From Blastococcus sp. TML/M2B (lineage in GTDB: Bacteria > Actinomycetota > Actinomycetes > Mycobacteriales > Geodermatophilaceae): a DNA stretch of 64,000 bases. Under the pieces are notes generated by a model, which was given only the letters and a program-made list of their open reading frames with translations, was not told the origin of the DNA and searched no databases. The number at the start of each line of letters is the position of its first letter. Within the stretch, counting starts at the first letter, position 1. Shown piece after piece: positions 3,644 through 14,272 of this stretch. Both the position numbers and the translations under genes were made by a program. The stretch is from positions 310,001 through 374,000 of the forward strand of contig NZ_JAENZZ010000002.1 of NCBI RefSeq assembly GCF_016612865.1, read 5' to 3'.

Positions 3644-4900
3644 CTAGGGCTGCGGGATCTCCGCCCGCTCCTCGAGCCGCCGCCGGTGGTGCTCGCGCAC
3701 CATGGCCCGCGTCGCGTAGGTCGAGTACCGCGGCACCCAGCGGGCCAGCCCGGCCGCGCCCAGCAGCCCGACGCCGCCCATCACCGCGATGCCGACGCCG
3801 AGAGGGGCGACCGTGGCGATCGCCGCCGGCACCACCGGGCCCAGCGACGTCCCGACGTCGTTGATCAGCCGGAAGATCGCCAGGAACGACCGTCGGTCGA
3901 GCTCGGGCGAGGTGTCCGCGCCCAGGGTCATCACGATGCCCGAGCCGATCCCGTTGCCGAAGGCCATGACCATGGCGACCGCGGTCAGCCCGACCACGCC
4001 GTCCGTCAGCGGCAGGGCCAGCGTGCCGAGGCCCAGGACGACCATGCACGGGACGGCGATCCACAGCCGGCCGAGCCTGTCCATGACGTGGCCCGACGGG
4101 TAGAAGAGCGCCATGTCGACGAAGTTGGCGATGCCGAAGACCAGGCTGGTGGTGGCCGCGTCCAGACCGATGTGATCGGCCCACAGCGGGATGACCGCCA
4201 CCCGGGCCGCGCGGATCGCCCCGATGGACGCCACCGCGATCCCGAGGGTGAGGAACAGCCGCCGGTGCCGGCGGAACATCTCGCGGACCCCGACCGGCCC
4301 GTGCCCCGCGCCCGCGGGCCGGGCGGCCGAGCCGGGCGTGACCGGCGCCAGGGCCAGGATCGCGGCCGCGACCAGCGAGGCGACCACCGCGACGGCGAAC
4401 GCCGAGCGGGTCCCCCAGATCGAGATGACGCCGGCGCCCACGAAGGGGCCGATGAACAGCCCGATGCGGAAGACACCGCCGAGCGTGGACATCGCGCGGG
4501 CCCGGTGGTGCACGGCGACGACGTCGGCGACGTAGGACTGCCGCGCGAGGTGCATGGTCGCGCCGCAGGCACCCAGCACCAGCAGCGCCACGGCCAGCGC
4601 GGCGACCGACCCGGTGACCAGGCAGGAGGCCATCGCGACTGCCGAGGCGAGCATCGCCGCGAGCATCGCGCCCTTCTCGCCGACCCGGTTGGCCAGCCAC
4701 GCGGCCGGGACGTCGCCGAGGATCGTGCCGATGCCGATCGCGGCGAGCATCAGCCCGGCGACCGTCGTCGAGGCGCCCGCGTCCAGGGCCACCAGGGCGA
4801 TGACCGGCATCACCGCGCCGTGGCCGATCTCGTAGACCAGCATCGGCAGCATCACCGACGGTCCGATCTGCCGCAGCACCGTGCTCAAGGTCGAACTCAT
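3644..4900 (-). CDS. MFS transporter
   Basis: A 418-residue major facilitator with about 12 hydrophobic segments and Ala/Gly-rich helices. It starts at ATG 4898-4900 (MSSTLSTVLRQIGPSVMLPM) and ends with TAG at 3644-3646. Loop motifs include GDVPAAWLANRVGEKGAM between TM2 and TM3 (the MFS motif A position) and MSTLGGVFRIG. The C-terminus is a short charged tail (REHHRRRLEERAEI). It is divergent from the TRIC-type gene. Substrate is unknown; a drug or metabolite efflux role is usual for such 12-TM proteins. Confidence 0.85.
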   Translation of the reverse strand: MSSTLSTVLRQIGPSVMLPMLVYEIGHGAVMPVIALVALDAGASTTVAGLMLAAIGIGTILGDVPAAWLANRVGEKGAMLAAMLASAVAMASCLVTGSVAALAVALLVLGACGATMHLARQSYVADVVAVHHRARAMSTLGGVFRIGLFIGPFVGAGVISIWGTRSAFAVAVVASLVAAAILALAPVTPGSAARPAGAGHGPVGVREMFRRHRRLFLTLGIAVASIGAIRAARVAVIPLWADHIGLDAATTSLVFGIANFVDMALFYPSGHVMDRLGRLWIAVPCMVVLGLGTLALPLTDGVVGLTAVAMVMAFGNGIGSGIVMTLGADTSPELDRRSFLAIFRLINDVGTSLGPVVPAAIATVAPLGVGIAVMGGVGLLGAAGLARWVPRYSTYATRAMVREHHRRRLEERAEIPQP

Positions 4901-5877: not shown

Positions 5878-6924
5878 GTGAGATTGACCCGCTCGTCCGC
5901 AGTCCTCGCCGTGATCGGCGTGCTGCTGGTCGTCGCCGCAGCGATCGTCCGCTTCGTCGTCGTCCCCTCGGCCACCCAGCTGCCGGAGGACCTCGACGTC
6001 ACCCTCGAGTTCGAGGGCACCTACAACGGGATCAACCCGGCCGTCCTCTCGGGCGGAGCGACCGAGGTGCTGGCCCGGGACGTCCCCATCGAGGCGACCC
6101 GCAACGTCTCCGCCGGCGACGTCGACGGCGGCAGCGAGATCGTGACGCGCACCGACGAGCGCACCGTCGGCACCGCTGAGCCGGCGATCACCGAGGTCAG
6201 CTTCAACGTGGACCGCGAGACCGCCGAGGCCGGCCCGGCCCCCGCCGGTGCCGACGACGTGCAGGACGCCGAGGGTCTGGTCTTCACCCTGCCCGTCGAC
6301 CCGTCCACCGAGGAGGGCACGTACGAGTACTGGGACCAGTACACGCTGCAGGCCGCCCCGGTGACCTTCGAGGGCGAGGAGACCTTCGGCGGTCGTGACG
6401 TCTACCGCTACGAGTCGCTCTCCGAGGGCGAGCTGGCCGACCCGGCCGCGCTGAACCTGCCGACGTCGCTGCCCAAGGAGACCCTCGCCGCGCTCGCCCC
6501 CGGCCTCGACGGCCTGGTGTCGCCGGAGCTCCTGGCCGCGCTGCCCGCGGTGCTGCCCTCGCTCCCGGCCGAGATCCCGATCGCCTGGACCTCGCGCACC
6601 ACGACCTTCGTCGACGCCGACCAGCAGCTGGGCGCCACCATCGCCGGCGGCAGCATCCAGGAGATCACCGGCTCGCTGGACCTCGGCGTGACGACGGTCG
6701 ACGTCCCGTTCGCGACGATCGACATCTACTCGACCGACGACTCCATCGAGGACCGCGGCGACGAGGTCGCCGACCAGGCGCAGCTGCTGACCCTGGTCGG
6801 CACGGTGCTGCCGATCGCGCTCCTGGTCATCGGCCTCCTGCTGGTCGTCGCCGCCCTGCTGCTGGCCCGCCGGGCCGCCGGCCGCACCGCTGCGGCGGAC
6901 CGGACGGGCGTGCACACCGCCTGA
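5878..6924 (+). CDS. DUF3068 (PorA-family) membrane protein
   Basis: A 348-residue protein with an N-terminal signal anchor (about residues 7-26), a long extracytoplasmic domain, and a C-terminal membrane helix (TVLPIALLVIGLLLVVAALL) followed by a basic tail. This two-helix design with a large acidic outer domain is that of DUF3068/PorA-type proteins of actinobacteria. The outer domain has regular Thr/Glu-rich beta-like stretches and YEYWDQYTLQ typical of the family. The start is GTG 5878. The 254 bases upstream (5624-5877) show no gene. A strong terminator follows immediately. Confidence 0.85.
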   Translation: MRLTRSSAVLAVIGVLLVVAAAIVRFVVVPSATQLPEDLDVTLEFEGTYNGINPAVLSGGATEVLARDVPIEATRNVSAGDVDGGSEIVTRTDERTVGTAEPAITEVSFNVDRETAEAGPAPAGADDVQDAEGLVFTLPVDPSTEEGTYEYWDQYTLQAAPVTFEGEETFGGRDVYRYESLSEGELADPAALNLPTSLPKETLAALAPGLDGLVSPELLAALPAVLPSLPAEIPIAWTSRTTTFVDADQQLGATIAGGSIQEITGSLDLGVTTVDVPFATIDIYSTDDSIEDRGDEVADQAQLLTLVGTVLPIALLVIGLLLVVAALLLARRAAGRTAAADRTGVHTA

Positions 6925-6937
6925 CCTCCCGCACGCG

Positions 6938-6981
6938 GACGGGCCCGGCCCCCAGGAGATCTCCTGGGGACCGGGCCCGTC
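6938..6981. terminator. Bidirectional terminator hairpin
   Basis: A 44-base inverted repeat with 22-base arms and one mismatch. The arms begin with GACGGGCCCGG and meet at GGAGATCTCC. It lies between the convergent DUF3068 gene and the acyl-CoA dehydrogenase gene, so it can serve both. There is no T tract, as is usual at this GC content. Confidence 0.85.
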
Positions 6982-6999
6982 GTGGTGTCGGAGCGCCGG

Positions 7000-8123
7000 T
7001 CAGGCCACTCGGCGCCGGCAGGTCGACCAGCTCCGCGAGGCGGGCCCGGTGCGCAGCCGGCGTGCCGAAGGCGATCTGGTCGGCCTTGGCGCGCTTCAGG
7101 TAGAGGTGCGCCGGGTGCTCCCAGGTCATGCCGATGCCGCCGTGCAGCTGGACGGCCTCCTCCGCGGCCTTCACCGCGACGTCGGAGACGAACGACTGCG
7201 CCACCGCGGTGGCCACCTCGCTGTCCGGGTCGCCCTGGGCCGTGGTGGCCGCGGCGTACCGGGCCGCGGCACCGGCGGACTCGACCGCCGCGTACAGGTC
7301 GGCCAGCCGGTGCTTGATCGCCTGGTAGCCGCCGACGACCCGGCCGAACTGACGGCGGTCCTTGAGGTAGGTGATCGTCGTCGTCAGGCACCACTGCGCG
7401 ACGCCGTACTGCTCGGAGGCGAGCAGCGCGGCGCCGACCTCCAGGGCGCGGCGCACGGCGTCGGCACCGGCGGAAGCGCCGAGCAGCTCCTGCCCGGCCA
7501 CCCCGTCGAGGGGTGACGTCGGCGAGCTGGCGGGTCATGTCCAGCGAGACGACGGCGTCAACCTGCGCGTCGGCAGCCGGGACCGCGTACACGGCCGTGC
7601 CGCTGCCGGTGCCGACCGGGACCAGCAGGACGTCGGCCTCGACCGCGCCGGCGACGCTGCGCGCGGTGCCGCTGAGCCGGCCCTCGCCGTCCACGGTGAA
7701 CGCGGTGCGCTCCTCCCCCGGCCCGGCCGAGAGCGGCAGCACGAGGGCGGCGGTGCGCTCGCCGGCGGCGAGACCCGCGAGCAGCTCGTCGGCCGCGCCG
7801 CCGGCCTCGGCGGCGAGCAGCACGGTCGTGGCGACGACGCTGCTGGTCAGGAACGGCACCGGGGCCACCGCGCGGCCGAGCTCCTCGAGGACCACAGCGG
7901 CCTCGCGGGCCGAGGCGCCGGCACCGCCGCGCTCCTCCGGGATGAGCAACGCGGCGAGGCCCAGGTCGGCGGCGACGGCGCGCCACAGCGGGTCGACGAG
8001 CGAGCGGTCGCCGTCGTAGGTGCCGGCGACGGCGTGCGGCTCGCTGCGCGCGGCGACCAGGTCGCGGACGCTGCTGCGCAGGTCGTCCTCGACGTCGGTG
8101 TAGAGCAGGTTCAGGTCGCTCAT
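7000..8123 (-). pseudogene. Acyl-CoA dehydrogenase, single-base frameshift
   Basis: The smaller partner of a two-subunit acyl-CoA dehydrogenase pair, FAD-dependent. From ATG 8121-8123 (MSDLNLLYTDVEDDLRSSV) the N-terminal and middle domains are intact to LDMTRQLADVT. At the G run 7510-7513 one extra base shifts the frame. The rest (DGVAGQELLGASAGADAVRR... EQYGVAQWCLTTTITYLKDR... HGGIGMTWEHPAHLYLKRAK) continues in the next frame. That frame has no stop at the expected place and runs on to 6827 through the terminator. The likely stop TGA (7000-7002) is in the third frame, so a second indel is possible. It is translationally coupled to the gene upstream (ATGA overlap at 8120-8123). Confidence 0.82.
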
Positions 8124-9319
8124 CGGGGCAGGTCCTTCCAGGCGATGCCGGTGTCGACGCGCGGCTCGGAGGGCAGTCCGAGCACCCGCTCGGAGATGAC
8201 GTTGCGCAGGATCTCCGAGGTGCCGCCCTCGATGGAGTTGCCCTTGGCGCGCAGGTAGCGGTAGGTGGCGTCGCGGCCGGTGAAGTCGACGTGCTCCGGG
8301 CGCTTCATCGTCCAGTCCGATGCCCGCAGGCCGTCCTCGCCGAGCAGCTCGAGCTCCATGCCGCTGGCCTCCTGGGCGATGCGGGCGAAGGTCAGCTTCA
8401 TCGCCGAGCCCTCGGGACCGGGCTCGCCCGCGGCCAGCTTCTGCCGCAGCCGCTGGCCGGTCACCCGGGCGACCTCGTTGTCCACCCAGAGCCGCAGCAG
8501 CTTGTCGTGCTGGCCGACGCCGCGCCTCTCGGGGTGCTCGCGCCAGCTCTTGGCCAGGACGCCGACCATCCCGCTCTCCCGGCCGCCGCCGCCACCGCCG
8601 ATGGCGACGCGCTCGTTGTTCAGCGTCGCGGTCGCGACCTTCCAGCCCTGGCCCTCGTCGCCGAGCCGCTGGCTGTCGGGGATGTGCACGTCGGTCAGGA
8701 AGACCTCGTTGAACTCGGCCTCGCCGGTGATCTGGCGCAGCGGCCGGACGTCGACGCCGGGGGCGTCCATGTTGCACAGGAAGTAGCTCAGCCCCGCGTG
8801 CTTGGACACCTCGGGGTTGGTGCGCGCGACCAGGATCGCCATCTGCGCCTTGTGCGCGCTCGACGTCCACACCTTCTGGCCGTTGACCACCCAGTCGGCC
8901 CCCTCACGGACCGCGCGGGTGCTGACGGCGGCGAGGTCGGAGCCGGCGCCGGGCTCGCTGAACAGCTGGCACCAGATCTGCTCGCCGGTCCACAGCGGGC
9001 GGAGGAACTTCTTCTTCTGCTCCTCGGTGCCGAACGCGAGGATCGTCGGCGCGGCCATGCCCAGGCCGATGCCGTTCCCGCGCGGGTTGTTGTCCGGCGC
9101 GCCGGCCTTGGCCAGCTGCACCTCGACCTGGGTCTGGAAGGAGCGCGGCAGGCCCAGCCCGCCGTGGCCCACCGGGAAGTTCACCCAGGCCAGGCCGGCG
9201 TCGTACCGGGCGCGGAGGAACTCCAGCCGGTCCATCGTGGTGTGGTCGTTGGCCGCGAGGAAGTCGCTGACCCGCTGGCGCAGGTCCTCCTCCACGGCTC
9301 GTGGATCGGTCGTGGTCAT
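8120..9319 (-). CDS. Acyl-CoA dehydrogenase (FadE-type)
   Basis: A complete 399-residue acyl-CoA dehydrogenase catalysing alpha,beta-dehydrogenation of an acyl-CoA with FAD. Recognisable blocks are QLFSEPGAGSDLAAVSTRAV (FAD/substrate signature), WVVNGQKVWTSSAH, and the C-terminal GNSIEGGTSEILRNVISERVLGLP (second signature). It is followed by a second, shorter homologue with a 4-base overlap. This pairing resembles the actinobacterial heteromeric FadE enzymes of sterol side-chain and cholate degradation, though the substrate here is not proven. An acyl-CoA ligase gene lies just upstream, 49 bases away. Confidence 0.93.
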   Translation of the reverse strand: MTTTDPRAVEEDLRQRVSDFLAANDHTTMDRLEFLRARYDAGLAWVNFPVGHGGLGLPRSFQTQVEVQLAKAGAPDNNPRGNGIGLGMAAPTILAFGTEEQKKKFLRPLWTGEQIWCQLFSEPGAGSDLAAVSTRAVREGADWVVNGQKVWTSSAHKAQMAILVARTNPEVSKHAGLSYFLCNMDAPGVDVRPLRQITGEAEFNEVFLTDVHIPDSQRLGDEGQGWKVATATLNNERVAIGGGGGGRESGMVGVLAKSWREHPERRGVGQHDKLLRLWVDNEVARVTGQRLRQKLAAGEPGPEGSAMKLTFARIAQEASGMELELLGEDGLRASDWTMKRPEHVDFTGRDATYRYLRAKGNSIEGGTSEILRNVISERVLGLPSEPRVDTGIAWKDLPR

Positions 9320-11456: not shown

Positions 11457-12236
11457 ATGAGCATCGAACTGGACGTCGAGGGAACGGTGGGCGCCGGCGC
11501 CGGGCGGGCTCGCCCTAACGTCTCCGGGGACCTGCCGACCGTGCTGCGGGCAGCGCCCATGTTCGCGCGGGCGCTGTCCGGCTACGACCGCTTCCAGGTC
11601 GAGTCCTACGTCCAGTGGGCGGAGGACGAGCTGGCCGCCGCCGATCGCGAGCGCGAGCACCTGGTGGGCCGCCAGCTGGAGACCGCCGCCGCCCTGGCGG
11701 AGGCCCGCGAGCTGCTCGCGCACTCCCCCGGCGGCGGGGAGTACCTCGGGGCGTCCCGGCGGATCGGCGCGCTGCTGGCCGCGGCGGCCGACGAGGCCAC
11801 GGCGCTGCGCGCGGAGGCGGCCGAGCAGGCCGCCGCCGAGCGCGCCGCCGCGGCGGAGGACCGGCAGGCGGCCGCGGCCGAGGCGCAGCGGCTGCTCGCC
11901 GAGGCCCGGCGCCGGGCCGCCGCGACCGAGGTCCTGGCCGACCGCTCGCTCGCCGCGGCGCGCACCGAGGCGGCCGCGATGGTCGAGCAGGCGACCGCCA
12001 TCGTCGCCACCGCGCAGCAGGACGCCGCCCGCCTCCGAACCGCGGCCGAGGAACAGCTGGCCCGGGCGACCGCCGAGGCCGACCGGATCCGCACGCAGGC
12101 GGCCGGCGACGCGGTCGGAGCCCGCGCCTCGGCGCGCGCCGAGGCGCTCCGCGTGCTGGCCGCCGGCCACGCGGAGCGCCGGCGGGCCGACGCGGAGGCC
12201 GCGCGGCTCAGGCAGGGGCCTCCCCCGCCGCGGTGA
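11457..12236 (+). CDS. DivIVA-like coiled-coil protein
   Basis: A 259-residue protein. After a short N-terminal tail comes FARALSGYDRFQVESYVQWAEDEL, which resembles the DivIVA N-terminal GYdr.eV..yv membrane-targeting motif. From about residue 60 to the end the protein is an almost continuous Ala/Glu/Arg-rich coiled coil. Proteins of this type in actinobacteria organise polar growth or septation, or act as scaffold-like cytoskeletal elements. The start is ATG 11457 with GGGGGAA upstream. The 3' end overlaps the convergent UGSC gene by 29 bases. Confidence 0.7.
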   Translation: MSIELDVEGTVGAGAGRARPNVSGDLPTVLRAAPMFARALSGYDRFQVESYVQWAEDELAAADREREHLVGRQLETAAALAEARELLAHSPGGGEYLGASRRIGALLAAAADEATALRAEAAEQAAAERAAAAEDRQAAAAEAQRLLAEARRRAAATEVLADRSLAAARTEAAAMVEQATAIVATAQQDAARLRTAAEEQLARATAEADRIRTQAAGDAVGARASARAEALRVLAAGHAERRRADAEAARLRQGPPPPR

Positions 12237-12738
12237 CCGCGGCGACCACCGCGGCGTACGCGCCGTCGGCCGCCGCGCGCATCTCCTCGTCCGTCCGGTC
12301 CTGGACCGGGTGCGGCACCAGGACGTACGGGGCGGGGAAGCCGAGGGTCGCGCTCTGCAGCCGGGCTGCCTCGTCGAACACCTCGCTGGCGAGGAAGACC
12401 CCCACCACTCCGCGGCGCTCCAGGTCTGCGATGTCATGCACACTGCACGACGTGCAGGAGCCCTAATCAGCGAGCGCCTCGATGACCACCTCGCACTGCT
12501 CGGCGATCTCGTGCCGCAGGTCGACCGGCGCCGTCCGGGTGAAGGTGGGCTTCTGGTACCGCCGCACCACCACGCCGTCGGCGGTGAGCAGCTCCTCGAG
12601 GCGGTCGAGGAAGACGTCCCCGCGGGGCTTGCTGATGTCGAGCAGCCCCACGGTGCGGCCGCGCAGCGACGCCGGGCGCGGCAGCAGCTCGCGCTCCGCC
12701 GTCCGCCGCTCGCCGGTCGGGTCGAGGACAGTTCTCAT
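12208..12738 (-). CDS. UGSC-family selenoprotein, Sec encoded by UAG
   Basis: A 176-residue protein if codon 92, TAG at 12463-12465, is read as selenocysteine. The two halves are in the same frame (12738 and 12441 differ by 99 codons). They join into a continuous family sequence, ...CEVVIEALAD-U-GSCTSCSVHDIADLERRG..., which reproduces the UGSC motif that names the family. Bacterial selenocysteine normally uses UGA; UAG decoding by a tRNA-Sec with a matching anticodon is established for Geodermatophilus and Blastococcus. A SECIS-like hairpin lies 11-30 bases after the UAG. The start ATG (12736-12738) overlaps the stop of the thioredoxin-like gene (ATGA), so the two are coupled. The nearby Cys residues (CTSC) suggest a redox centre. 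The alternative is an amber-mutated or truncated 91-residue protein, which is much less likely given motif position and hairpin. Confidence 0.88.
12433..12451 (-). promoter_or_regulatory. Bacterial SECIS-like hairpin
   Basis: In the mRNA, nucleotides 12-30 after the UAG can fold as GUCGUGC-AGUGU-GCAUGAC: seven pairs (one G-U) with a five-base apical loop that has G in the second position. The loop starts 19 bases past the UAG, inside the usual 16-37 base window for bacterial SECIS elements bound by SelB. An outer stem is also possible between 12457-12461 and 12417-12421 (GCUCC with GGAGC). Confidence 0.7.
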
Positions 12739-14132
12739 GTGCGCACCTCTCTGGTCACCGGGGCGCTCCCGGTGCTCCCGGACACCCAGCCGCCGACGAT
12801 GGCGCTGAACAGCCCCGCGTCACCGCCGGCGTGCACCACCAGCAGCCCGCCCGGTCGGAACTTGGGCAGCTCGACCCCGGCCAGCCGCTCCTGGATCCCC
12901 TCCTCGATGCCGCCGGCGCCGCGGATGAGCTCGTCGGAGGGCAGGGTCAGCAGCGCGCCGATCTCGGCGACCAGCCGGTCGCGGTCCCAGCCGGCCTCGC
13001 GGAAGAGCCGGCCGTGCTCCGGGGAGACGATCAGCACCGCGTCGAAGGCCAGCGGCAGCTTCGGGTGACCGTTGACGCGGAGGCACGCCGCGAAGCTCCG
13101 GGCCAGCGACTCCGGCGTCCGGCTCAGCTGGTCGACGACGGGCTGCACGCCCGAGCCGGCGAAGACGGTGACCGCGTTGCCGGGGACGCCGCGGTCGGCC
13201 GCCAGCGGGGTGAACGGGCTGTCCTCCTCGCGCTCGGCGAAGCAGAAGCTGTACTTGCCCGGATTGCCGAGAGTGGCGCGGTCGATCTCGCCGGGCCGGC
13301 CGCCGCCCACGTTGCGGACGACGAGCTGCAGCGCCCGGCCGATGGTGGCGTTGGCGCGGTTGCCCTGACCGAGCGCGTTGACGCCGCTGTTCATGCCGAT
13401 CCGCCGCGTGATCGGGCCGTTGACCACGATCATCGGCCCGGAGAAGTACGTCGTCGCCAGGAGGCCGTGCAGGCCGAACTCGTCCGCGGAGGCGGCCTCG
13501 AGGGCGGCCAGCACGACCGGGAGGTGCTCGGGCAGGCAGCCGGCCATGACTGCGTTGACCGCGACCTTCTCGACGGTGCACTCGACGAGGTCCGGCGGGA
13601 CGACGGCGACGACCTCCTGCGGGTCGCGGGGCGTGCCGCGGAGCATGCGCAGCACCCGCTCCGGGGTGGGCGGGACGACGGGCAGGCCGTCGGTCCAGCC
13701 GCGGTCGTACATGGCCTCGTGCTCGTCCTCGAGGTCGGCGAGCTCGACCCGCCGGCTGCCCAGACCGGTACCGCCGTAGCGGGCCTCCAGGGCGTCGATC
13801 CGGTCCGGGTCCACCGACAGCGAGCCGCACCCGGGCCGGTGCTCGGGCAGGCCGGTGCCGAGGCCGGTGACGCCGGTCAGGCCCTCCCACTGCTCGCGGC
13901 TCCAACCGACGACGCGGGCGGCCTCCTCGCCGTCCTCGATCCGCAGGAGCGTCGGGACGGTCTCGATGTTCCACCGGTACGAGAGCTCGAGCTCGAGGTC
14001 CTCGTGCTCGAACCAGCCGGCGTCGTCCTGGCACCAGACGGTGGCGCCGAGTTCCCGCAGCACCGGCTCGACGAGGACGCAGGTGGGGCACTCGCGCTTC
14101 ACCACGGCCACGAGACCGTCGGGGAGCTGCAT
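12735..14132 (-). CDS. Thioredoxin-like/UGSC-partner fusion protein
   Basis: About 465 residues. The N-terminal ~90 residues form a thioredoxin-like domain with redox motif KRECPTCVLVEP (Cys 15 and 18) and the cis-proline region WNIETVPTLLRIEDG. A long C-terminal domain follows (from about residue 140) that I do not recognise by name; it contains DRGWTDGLPVVPPTPERV and FGLHGLLATTYFSGPMIVVN. The ATG at 14130-14132 is preferred to the in-frame GTG at 14154-14156 because the redox motif is then near the N-terminus as usual; no clear ribosome binding site separates them. The stop overlaps the ATG of the UGSC selenoprotein gene, so the two proteins probably work together, with the CxxC domain as electron donor to the selenoprotein (inference). 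Confidence 0.75.
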   Translation of the reverse strand: MQLPDGLVAVVKRECPTCVLVEPVLRELGATVWCQDDAGWFEHEDLELELSYRWNIETVPTLLRIEDGEEAARVVGWSREQWEGLTGVTGLGTGLPEHRPGCGSLSVDPDRIDALEARYGGTGLGSRRVELADLEDEHEAMYDRGWTDGLPVVPPTPERVLRMLRGTPRDPQEVVAVVPPDLVECTVEKVAVNAVMAGCLPEHLPVVLAALEAASADEFGLHGLLATTYFSGPMIVVNGPITRRIGMNSGVNALGQGNRANATIGRALQLVVRNVGGGRPGEIDRATLGNPGKYSFCFAEREEDSPFTPLAADRGVPGNAVTVFAGSGVQPVVDQLSRTPESLARSFAACLRVNGHPKLPLAFDAVLIVSPEHGRLFREAGWDRDRLVAEIGALLTLPSDELIRGAGGIEEGIQERLAGVELPKFRPGGLLVVHAGGDAGLFSAIVGGWVSGSTGSAPVTREVRT

Positions 14133-14272
14133 GCGCCGGACCGTAGCGCACGTCACAGCGCGGGCGGTCCGATCCGGTGCTCGGCGAGCCCTGTCAAGGG
14201 CCGTCGCCGATCTGTGGACAGGCGTCTGACCTGGGGATTCATCTGGTCTCGTACTGCCGTTGGCGATACTAT

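Follow-up and report, generated by a model that had tools for sequence, protein, structure and literature searches.

A predicted UAG-encoded selenoprotein of the UGSC family in Blastococcus sp. TML/M2B and the distribution of UAG selenocysteine codons in Geodermatophilaceae

The stretch of 64,000 nucleotides from the genome of the soil actinobacterium Blastococcus sp. TML/M2B analyzed here (hereafter, the window) carries on its minus strand a reading frame (12738..12208) that starts with ATG, reaches TAG at codon 92 (12465-12463), continues for 84 further codons and ends in TGA. The context of this codon, EALAD-TAG-GSCTSC, puts it at the U of the UGSC motif, as described in a sequence-only reading of the same DNA, which also placed both sides of the TAG in one frame of 176 codons; the frame is indeed continuous, and each half matches the family model PF24696 by itself. 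The 91-aa open reading frame (ORF) upstream of the TAG covers positions 1-92 of the model (65.7 bits; cut-off 25) and the 77-aa ORF downstream covers positions 101-171 (45.5 bits; cut-off 25). The read-through product scores 151.8 bits against PF24696 (cut-off 25 bits) and 146.6 bits against NCBIfam NF041046 (cut-off 125), exceeding the curated cut-offs of both models, so that the proposed assignment to the UGSC family holds for the joined protein. The standard-code ORF list splits the gene into two ORFs, the outcome that the sequence-only reading expected of normal annotation. Immediately upstream and on the same strand, a second gene (12735..14156), denoted the partner gene below, overlaps the start of the UGSC gene by 4 nt.

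Among 84 aligned UGSC sequences, D91, the C or U at position 92 and C95 are invariant, that is, the U/C-x-x-C motif is present, and the homologues have TAG, TGA, TGC or TGT in the U column; the TAG at the UGSC codon is therefore more than a chance occurrence. In a comparison with 30 distinct TAG relatives (identity of at least 75%) that covered the 65 codons before and the 65 codons after the UAG, the differences at codon positions 1, 2 and 3 numbered 166, 125 and 510 upstream and 130, 141 and 557 downstream, and no stops were encountered. The dominance of third-position differences and the lack of stops after the UAG indicate that this part of the gene is constrained at the level of the protein. 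Judged from the sequence, this is a selenoprotein gene (12208..12738, minus strand) with UAG as the selenocysteine (Sec) codon, its predicted product being a protein of 176 aa with Sec92 as the U of a UxxC motif, and the original observation is thereby confirmed.

A hairpin with the properties expected of a bacterial SECIS element (12433..12451, minus strand; stem of 7-8 bp, apical AGUGU) begins 14 nt downstream of the first UAG base. The loop motif AGTNT is found at offsets 21-25 from the codon in 90/90 UGSC rows with TAG (a count in which some rows are one gene present in two collections) and in 59/59 rows with TGA, compared to 0/21 rows with Cys. Across 30 distinct TAG sequences (45 nt each), 91.7% of the stem cells are paired and three pairs show two-sided changes. 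The covariation score is 0.346, slid registers giving 0.143 at the most, and it lies above all 500 shuffles; the count of two-sided pairs is reached by 432 of these shuffles and does not stand out from them. The Cys rows yield 53.0% paired cells, where slid registers yield up to 63.7%, and they score 0.165, where slid registers score up to 0.147, so that the Cys copies show no clear hairpin register. Folding of single sequences does give the hairpin, with a stability that is not exceptional for the composition (z from -0.3 to -1.4), hence the case for a SECIS rests on conservation and covariation. An Rfam search of the hairpin region returned three weak matches, with no SECIS among them.

The same arrangement recurs in a formate dehydrogenase (FDH)-like gene of the Blastococcus genome that contains the window. 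This gene matches TIGR01591 (formate dehydrogenase alpha) in pieces that fall below the curated cut-off, the first with 186 bits, and has TAG at codon 190 in the context QARI-U-HSSTVPG, which we take to be the Sec position of formate dehydrogenases. Thus, the UGSC gene and the FDH-like gene both have TAG, not TGA, as the predicted Sec codon. The FDH-like hairpin, with 7 bp and a GGTCT loop, occupies the same register as in UGSC at 12/12 loci from 12 genomes, and a segment of 200 aa spanning the codon was detected in 98 of the 112 Geodermatophilaceae genomes (E 1e-60), with one TAG in every match listed. When UGSC and FDH-like rows were analyzed jointly (12 of the 30 UGSC rows and 7 of the 12 FDH-like rows, hand-picked for diversity), six of the seven pairs changed on both sides and the covariation score rose to 0.769, against at most 0.194 in slid registers; none of 500 shuffles reached this score, and 104 reached the two-sided pair count. 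The six AhpC-TSA family matches of the same genome contain no internal stops.

The hairpin sets the UGSC codon apart from all other TAG triplets of the window: of the 299 counted on both strands, this codon alone is followed in the SECIS register by an RGTNT loop on a stem of 5 bp or more. Where TAG terminates a called gene of the window, as it does in six cases, the stem at this register amounts to 0-1 bp. The dependence of UAG decoding on context, which the sequence-only reading deduced from the use of UAG as an ordinary stop, agrees with these observations, the conserved SECIS supplying the context. A UAG-SECIS covariance model, built on two gene families only and so liable to miss others, was run over the Blastococcus genome, where 150 of 15,552 first-look candidates were scored and yielded 38 matches. 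The FDH-like gene (50.9 bits) and the UGSC gene (50.0 bits), both in the training set, came out on top, followed by ten matches of at most 22.6 bits, six of which begin with TAG; among the top 12 matches inspected, none of these six has the RGTNT loop in register. One of the four among the ten that do not begin with TAG (L284, G000:C2:690932-690963, minus strand) does show an AGTGT hairpin, with neither TAG nor TGA at the codon position.

The machinery for Sec incorporation can be traced in the same genome, where selA, selB, selD and a tRNA-Sec are all present, selA being frameshifted in this assembly. A search with the tRNA-Sec model gave nine matches, two of them above the Rfam cut-off. The best (69.5 bits; cut-off 47) is aligned by Rfam end to end, has the anticodon CTA (that is, CUA) and lies between selD and the selA-selB reading frame; this is the tRNA whose existence had been predicted, and ARAGORN labels it tRNA-Pyl, anticodon CTA. 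The other match above the cut-off (48.2 bits) is a tRNA-Ser, and six further matches were typed as Arg, Ser, Tyr, Leu, Met and Arg tRNAs. No UCA anticodon, which would have spoken against UAG decoding had it been the only one, occurs among the eight matches typed, the ninth and weakest scoring 30.6 bits. Release factor RF1 is also present (474.6 bits, above the cut-off), so that the SECIS context should decide whether a UAG is read as stop or as Sec. UAG is in fact an ordinary stop in the window, ending 6 of the 43 genes called by a simple, heuristic GC3-based caller, and TGA ends the remaining 37. Five TAG-ended genes had been listed earlier, of which the caller recovered those at 3644, 9369 and 19821, and did not recover those at 1293 and 33924.

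The frameshift in selA requires separate consideration. The selA model match ends at residue 332 (position 333 of 455), and the frame continues into selB (L009, 9938-13006 on contig C1), leaving the C-terminal quarter out of frame; the spacing from selA to selB is off by one base (modulo 3) compared to six relatives with the CUA tRNA-Sec (L223-L227, L229), in which the selA and selB matches lie in different frames. Intact selA frames exist in relatives. Within the window, an acyl-CoA dehydrogenase gene (fadE) is likewise split on the minus strand (6726-8870 and 6827-7501), with the N-terminal and C-terminal domains in different frames, and there is another frame oddity near 21 kb; together these suggest assembly indels. 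Of the 11 and 14 ORFs of relatives that had matches in the same comparison, none is split in the Blastococcus assembly, which lends no support to a high rate of assembly errors. One of the six TAG-ended gene calls (8258) is probably a miscall antisense to a split gene. The selA frame break is probably an assembly indel, which is the preferred reading; if real, it would leave the strain unable to make Sec-tRNA.

The CUA tRNA-Sec is widespread in the family. A tRNA-Sec was found in 108 of the 112 Geodermatophilaceae genomes, and a CUA anticodon arm in 101 of the 112, spanning 9 of 12 genera; the 11 genomes that lack this arm comprise nine of three genera (g5, g6 and g7) and two incomplete genomes of genus g9. 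All seven tRNA-Sec found in the three former genera have the UCA anticodon. In the 22 tRNAs compared, the last pair of the anticodon stem is C-G in CUA tRNA-Sec as opposed to T-A in UCA tRNA-Sec. One genome (G058) has a second, UCA tRNA-Sec beside the CUA one (L235, 1169-1263, contig C17); it lies at the lower-GC, transposase-rich end of a 69-kb contig on which no selA or selB match was found, and was perhaps brought in by a mobile element.

The UGSC family itself is represented in 54 of the 112 Geodermatophilaceae genomes by 95 matches, with TAG in the codon column of 72, TGC in 20, TGT in two, TCG in one (a weak match without the motif) and TGA in none. Several genomes with a CUA tRNA-Sec harbor Cys (TGC) paralogues of UGSC without the SECIS loop (L039-L046, L149-L155, L158), some of which share a genome with TAG copies. 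In a scan of GTDB, the best 80 of at least 541 stretches that encode relatives included 21 with TAG and 59 with TGA; all 21 TAG loci, some of which are the same genes as in the Geodermatophilaceae set, belong to organisms named Blastococcus or Geodermatophilus. A survey of the order Mycobacteriales (397 genomes, Geodermatophilaceae members included) yielded 33 UGSC matches outside the family, 14 with TGA and 19 without a stop, and TAG was found in none of these 33 in the genomes sampled; the TGA occupies the U column in all six of the 14 TGA loci that were inspected. In a tree of 101 proteins with the ALAD-U-GSC motif (of 155), the distribution of TAG takes two changes on the best topology and well-supported branches require only one, so that the tree does not establish independent switches to TAG.

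The UGSC gene and its partner form a conserved pair, the partner gene being present at 106 of 110 UGSC loci. The N-terminal region of the partner protein gives a weak thioredoxin-like match with a CPTC motif, both cysteines of which are kept at all 85 partner loci that cover them; the C-terminal part is conserved and has no assigned function. At one locus with a TGA copy of UGSC (L138), the partner gene was not found in the approximately 2.2 kb of upstream sequence. The structure model of the UGSC protein (pLDDT 93.6) is a five-stranded alpha/beta, flavodoxin-like fold in which the Sec immediately precedes the helix after strand 3. Thioredoxin is not among the structural matches listed for this model, which still leaves room for a thioredoxin-like fold. 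The UGSC product would act in redox chemistry through its UxxC motif, and the CPTC domain of the partner protein probably returns it to the reduced state.

Several other explanations of the internal UAG have to be weighed against Sec insertion. The gene might be a pseudogene or an ordinary truncation, in which translation ends at the UAG and what lies beyond it is a relic or an independent ORF, as could be suspected from the two ORFs obtained under the standard code and from the frameshifted selA. This is very improbable, considering that in 30 relatives the pattern of change after the UAG resembles that before it, with third-position differences dominant and no stops, and that the hairpin loop is kept in every one of the 90 TAG rows. 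A sequencing error or a private mutation at the UGSC codon, to which the frame breaks elsewhere in the assembly could be taken to point, has a practically negligible chance of being correct: TAG stands in the same column in 72 of the 95 Geodermatophilaceae matches, and the FDH-like genes have TAG as well. Pyrrolysine, suggested by the ARAGORN label tRNA-Pyl and the CTA anticodon, is less credible than truncation, given that Rfam scores the tRNA as tRNA-Sec from end to end (69.5 bits against a cut-off of 47), that the best match to the PylS C-terminal model reaches 22.2 bits against a cut-off of 178.15 (exceeded in one of 14 control genomes), that homologues have Cys or TGA at the site, and that the tRNA is located with selD and selA-selB. 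Pyrrolysine decoding was accordingly rejected for this genome, with its tRNA-Sec identified by Rfam and no PylS match at the cut-off.

A different kind of alternative accepts the design as described and holds that a genuine selA frameshift has abolished Sec synthesis in this strain, leaving the gene silent here. This possibility, which qualifies the main explanation and does not replace it, draws on selA being one base out of step with six relatives; it seems unlikely, although less so than those above, since the two UAG genes are intact, as are their hairpins and the tRNA, and a second split gene in the window is what indel errors would give.

The explanation that we regard, taken as a whole, as very highly probable is that of a UAG-encoded UGSC selenoprotein, directed by the hairpin and SelB and probably re-reduced by the partner. 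SelB-GTP with Sec-tRNA-Sec(CUA) would bind the hairpin, whose start lies 14 nt beyond the first codon base, and deliver Sec at the UAG in competition with RF1, and UAG codons without a hairpin would act as stops. The resulting UxxC redox protein would then be re-reduced, probably by the CPTC domain encoded in the overlapping upstream gene. The interpretation put forward in the sequence-only reading is supported in this respect by the comparative sequence data.

For the family as a whole, a broader scenario can be proposed, to which we give roughly even chances. In most Geodermatophilaceae, UAG would have replaced UGA as the Sec codon and become fixed through one anticodon switch, accompanied by the change of the stem pair from T-A to C-G, with all selenoprotein lineages then following; the FDH-like lineage and several UGSC lineages, some of them perhaps later acquisitions with UGA, would have been converted with the SECIS unchanged, and the UGSC-partner pair would constitute a flavodoxin-fold Sec enzyme with its own thioredoxin-like reductant. 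This is a natural case of a changed Sec codon common to most of one bacterial family, in which the adjustment of selenoprotein genes, tRNA and release factors to the new codon can be read from many genomes. The minor role of UAG as a stop beside UGA in the window (6 versus 37 called genes) suggests a testable reason for the codon change. With the gene split in the ORF list and the tRNA labeled tRNA-Pyl by ARAGORN, such genes are easily missed.

Pyrrolysine decoding likewise uses UAG as a sense codon in selected genes; the present system differs by a tRNA that belongs to the Sec family and by the lack of any PylS match at the cut-off. The work of Mukai and colleagues of 2016 on this bacterial family reportedly included labeling experiments. 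UAG-directed Sec in Geodermatophilaceae, UGSC included, is already published: a passage of PMC5330540 credits the UAG-encoded UGSC and FDH selenoproteins to Mukai et al. (2016; doi 10.1002/anie.201511657), in agreement with the statement of the sequence-only reading that such decoding is established in Geodermatophilus and Blastococcus. The system described there has the same CUA tRNA-Sec and UAG in UGSC and FDH genes, and the present analysis differs in dealing with another genome and a wider survey of the family. The UAG-encoded AhpC of Blastococcus saxobsidens DD2, mentioned in the same source, shares the bacterial family, the codon and a bacterial SECIS, unlike the six AhpC-TSA matches of the present genome, which have no internal stop. 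UAG, UAA and sense-codon Sec are summarized in part of PMC10778597, and genomes of Geodermatophilaceae are the subject of PMC9686282; UGSC proteins are listed in sections of PMC13188914 and PMC9312934, in which Geodermatophilus is not named. Among the titles listed in searches of open-licence literature, none concerns the distribution of UAG-directed Sec across Geodermatophilaceae. New here are the survey of the family, the covariation, the predicted flavodoxin-like fold and the conserved partner gene, whose product has a weakly matching thioredoxin-like CPTC domain. With the UGSC-containing selenoproteins as described, in the relevant part of PMC2398784, with a thioredoxin-like fold as a guess, the present protein shares the family models (PF24696 and NF041046) and the UxxC motif, and it differs from them in the use of UAG and in the five-stranded flavodoxin-like fold predicted for it.
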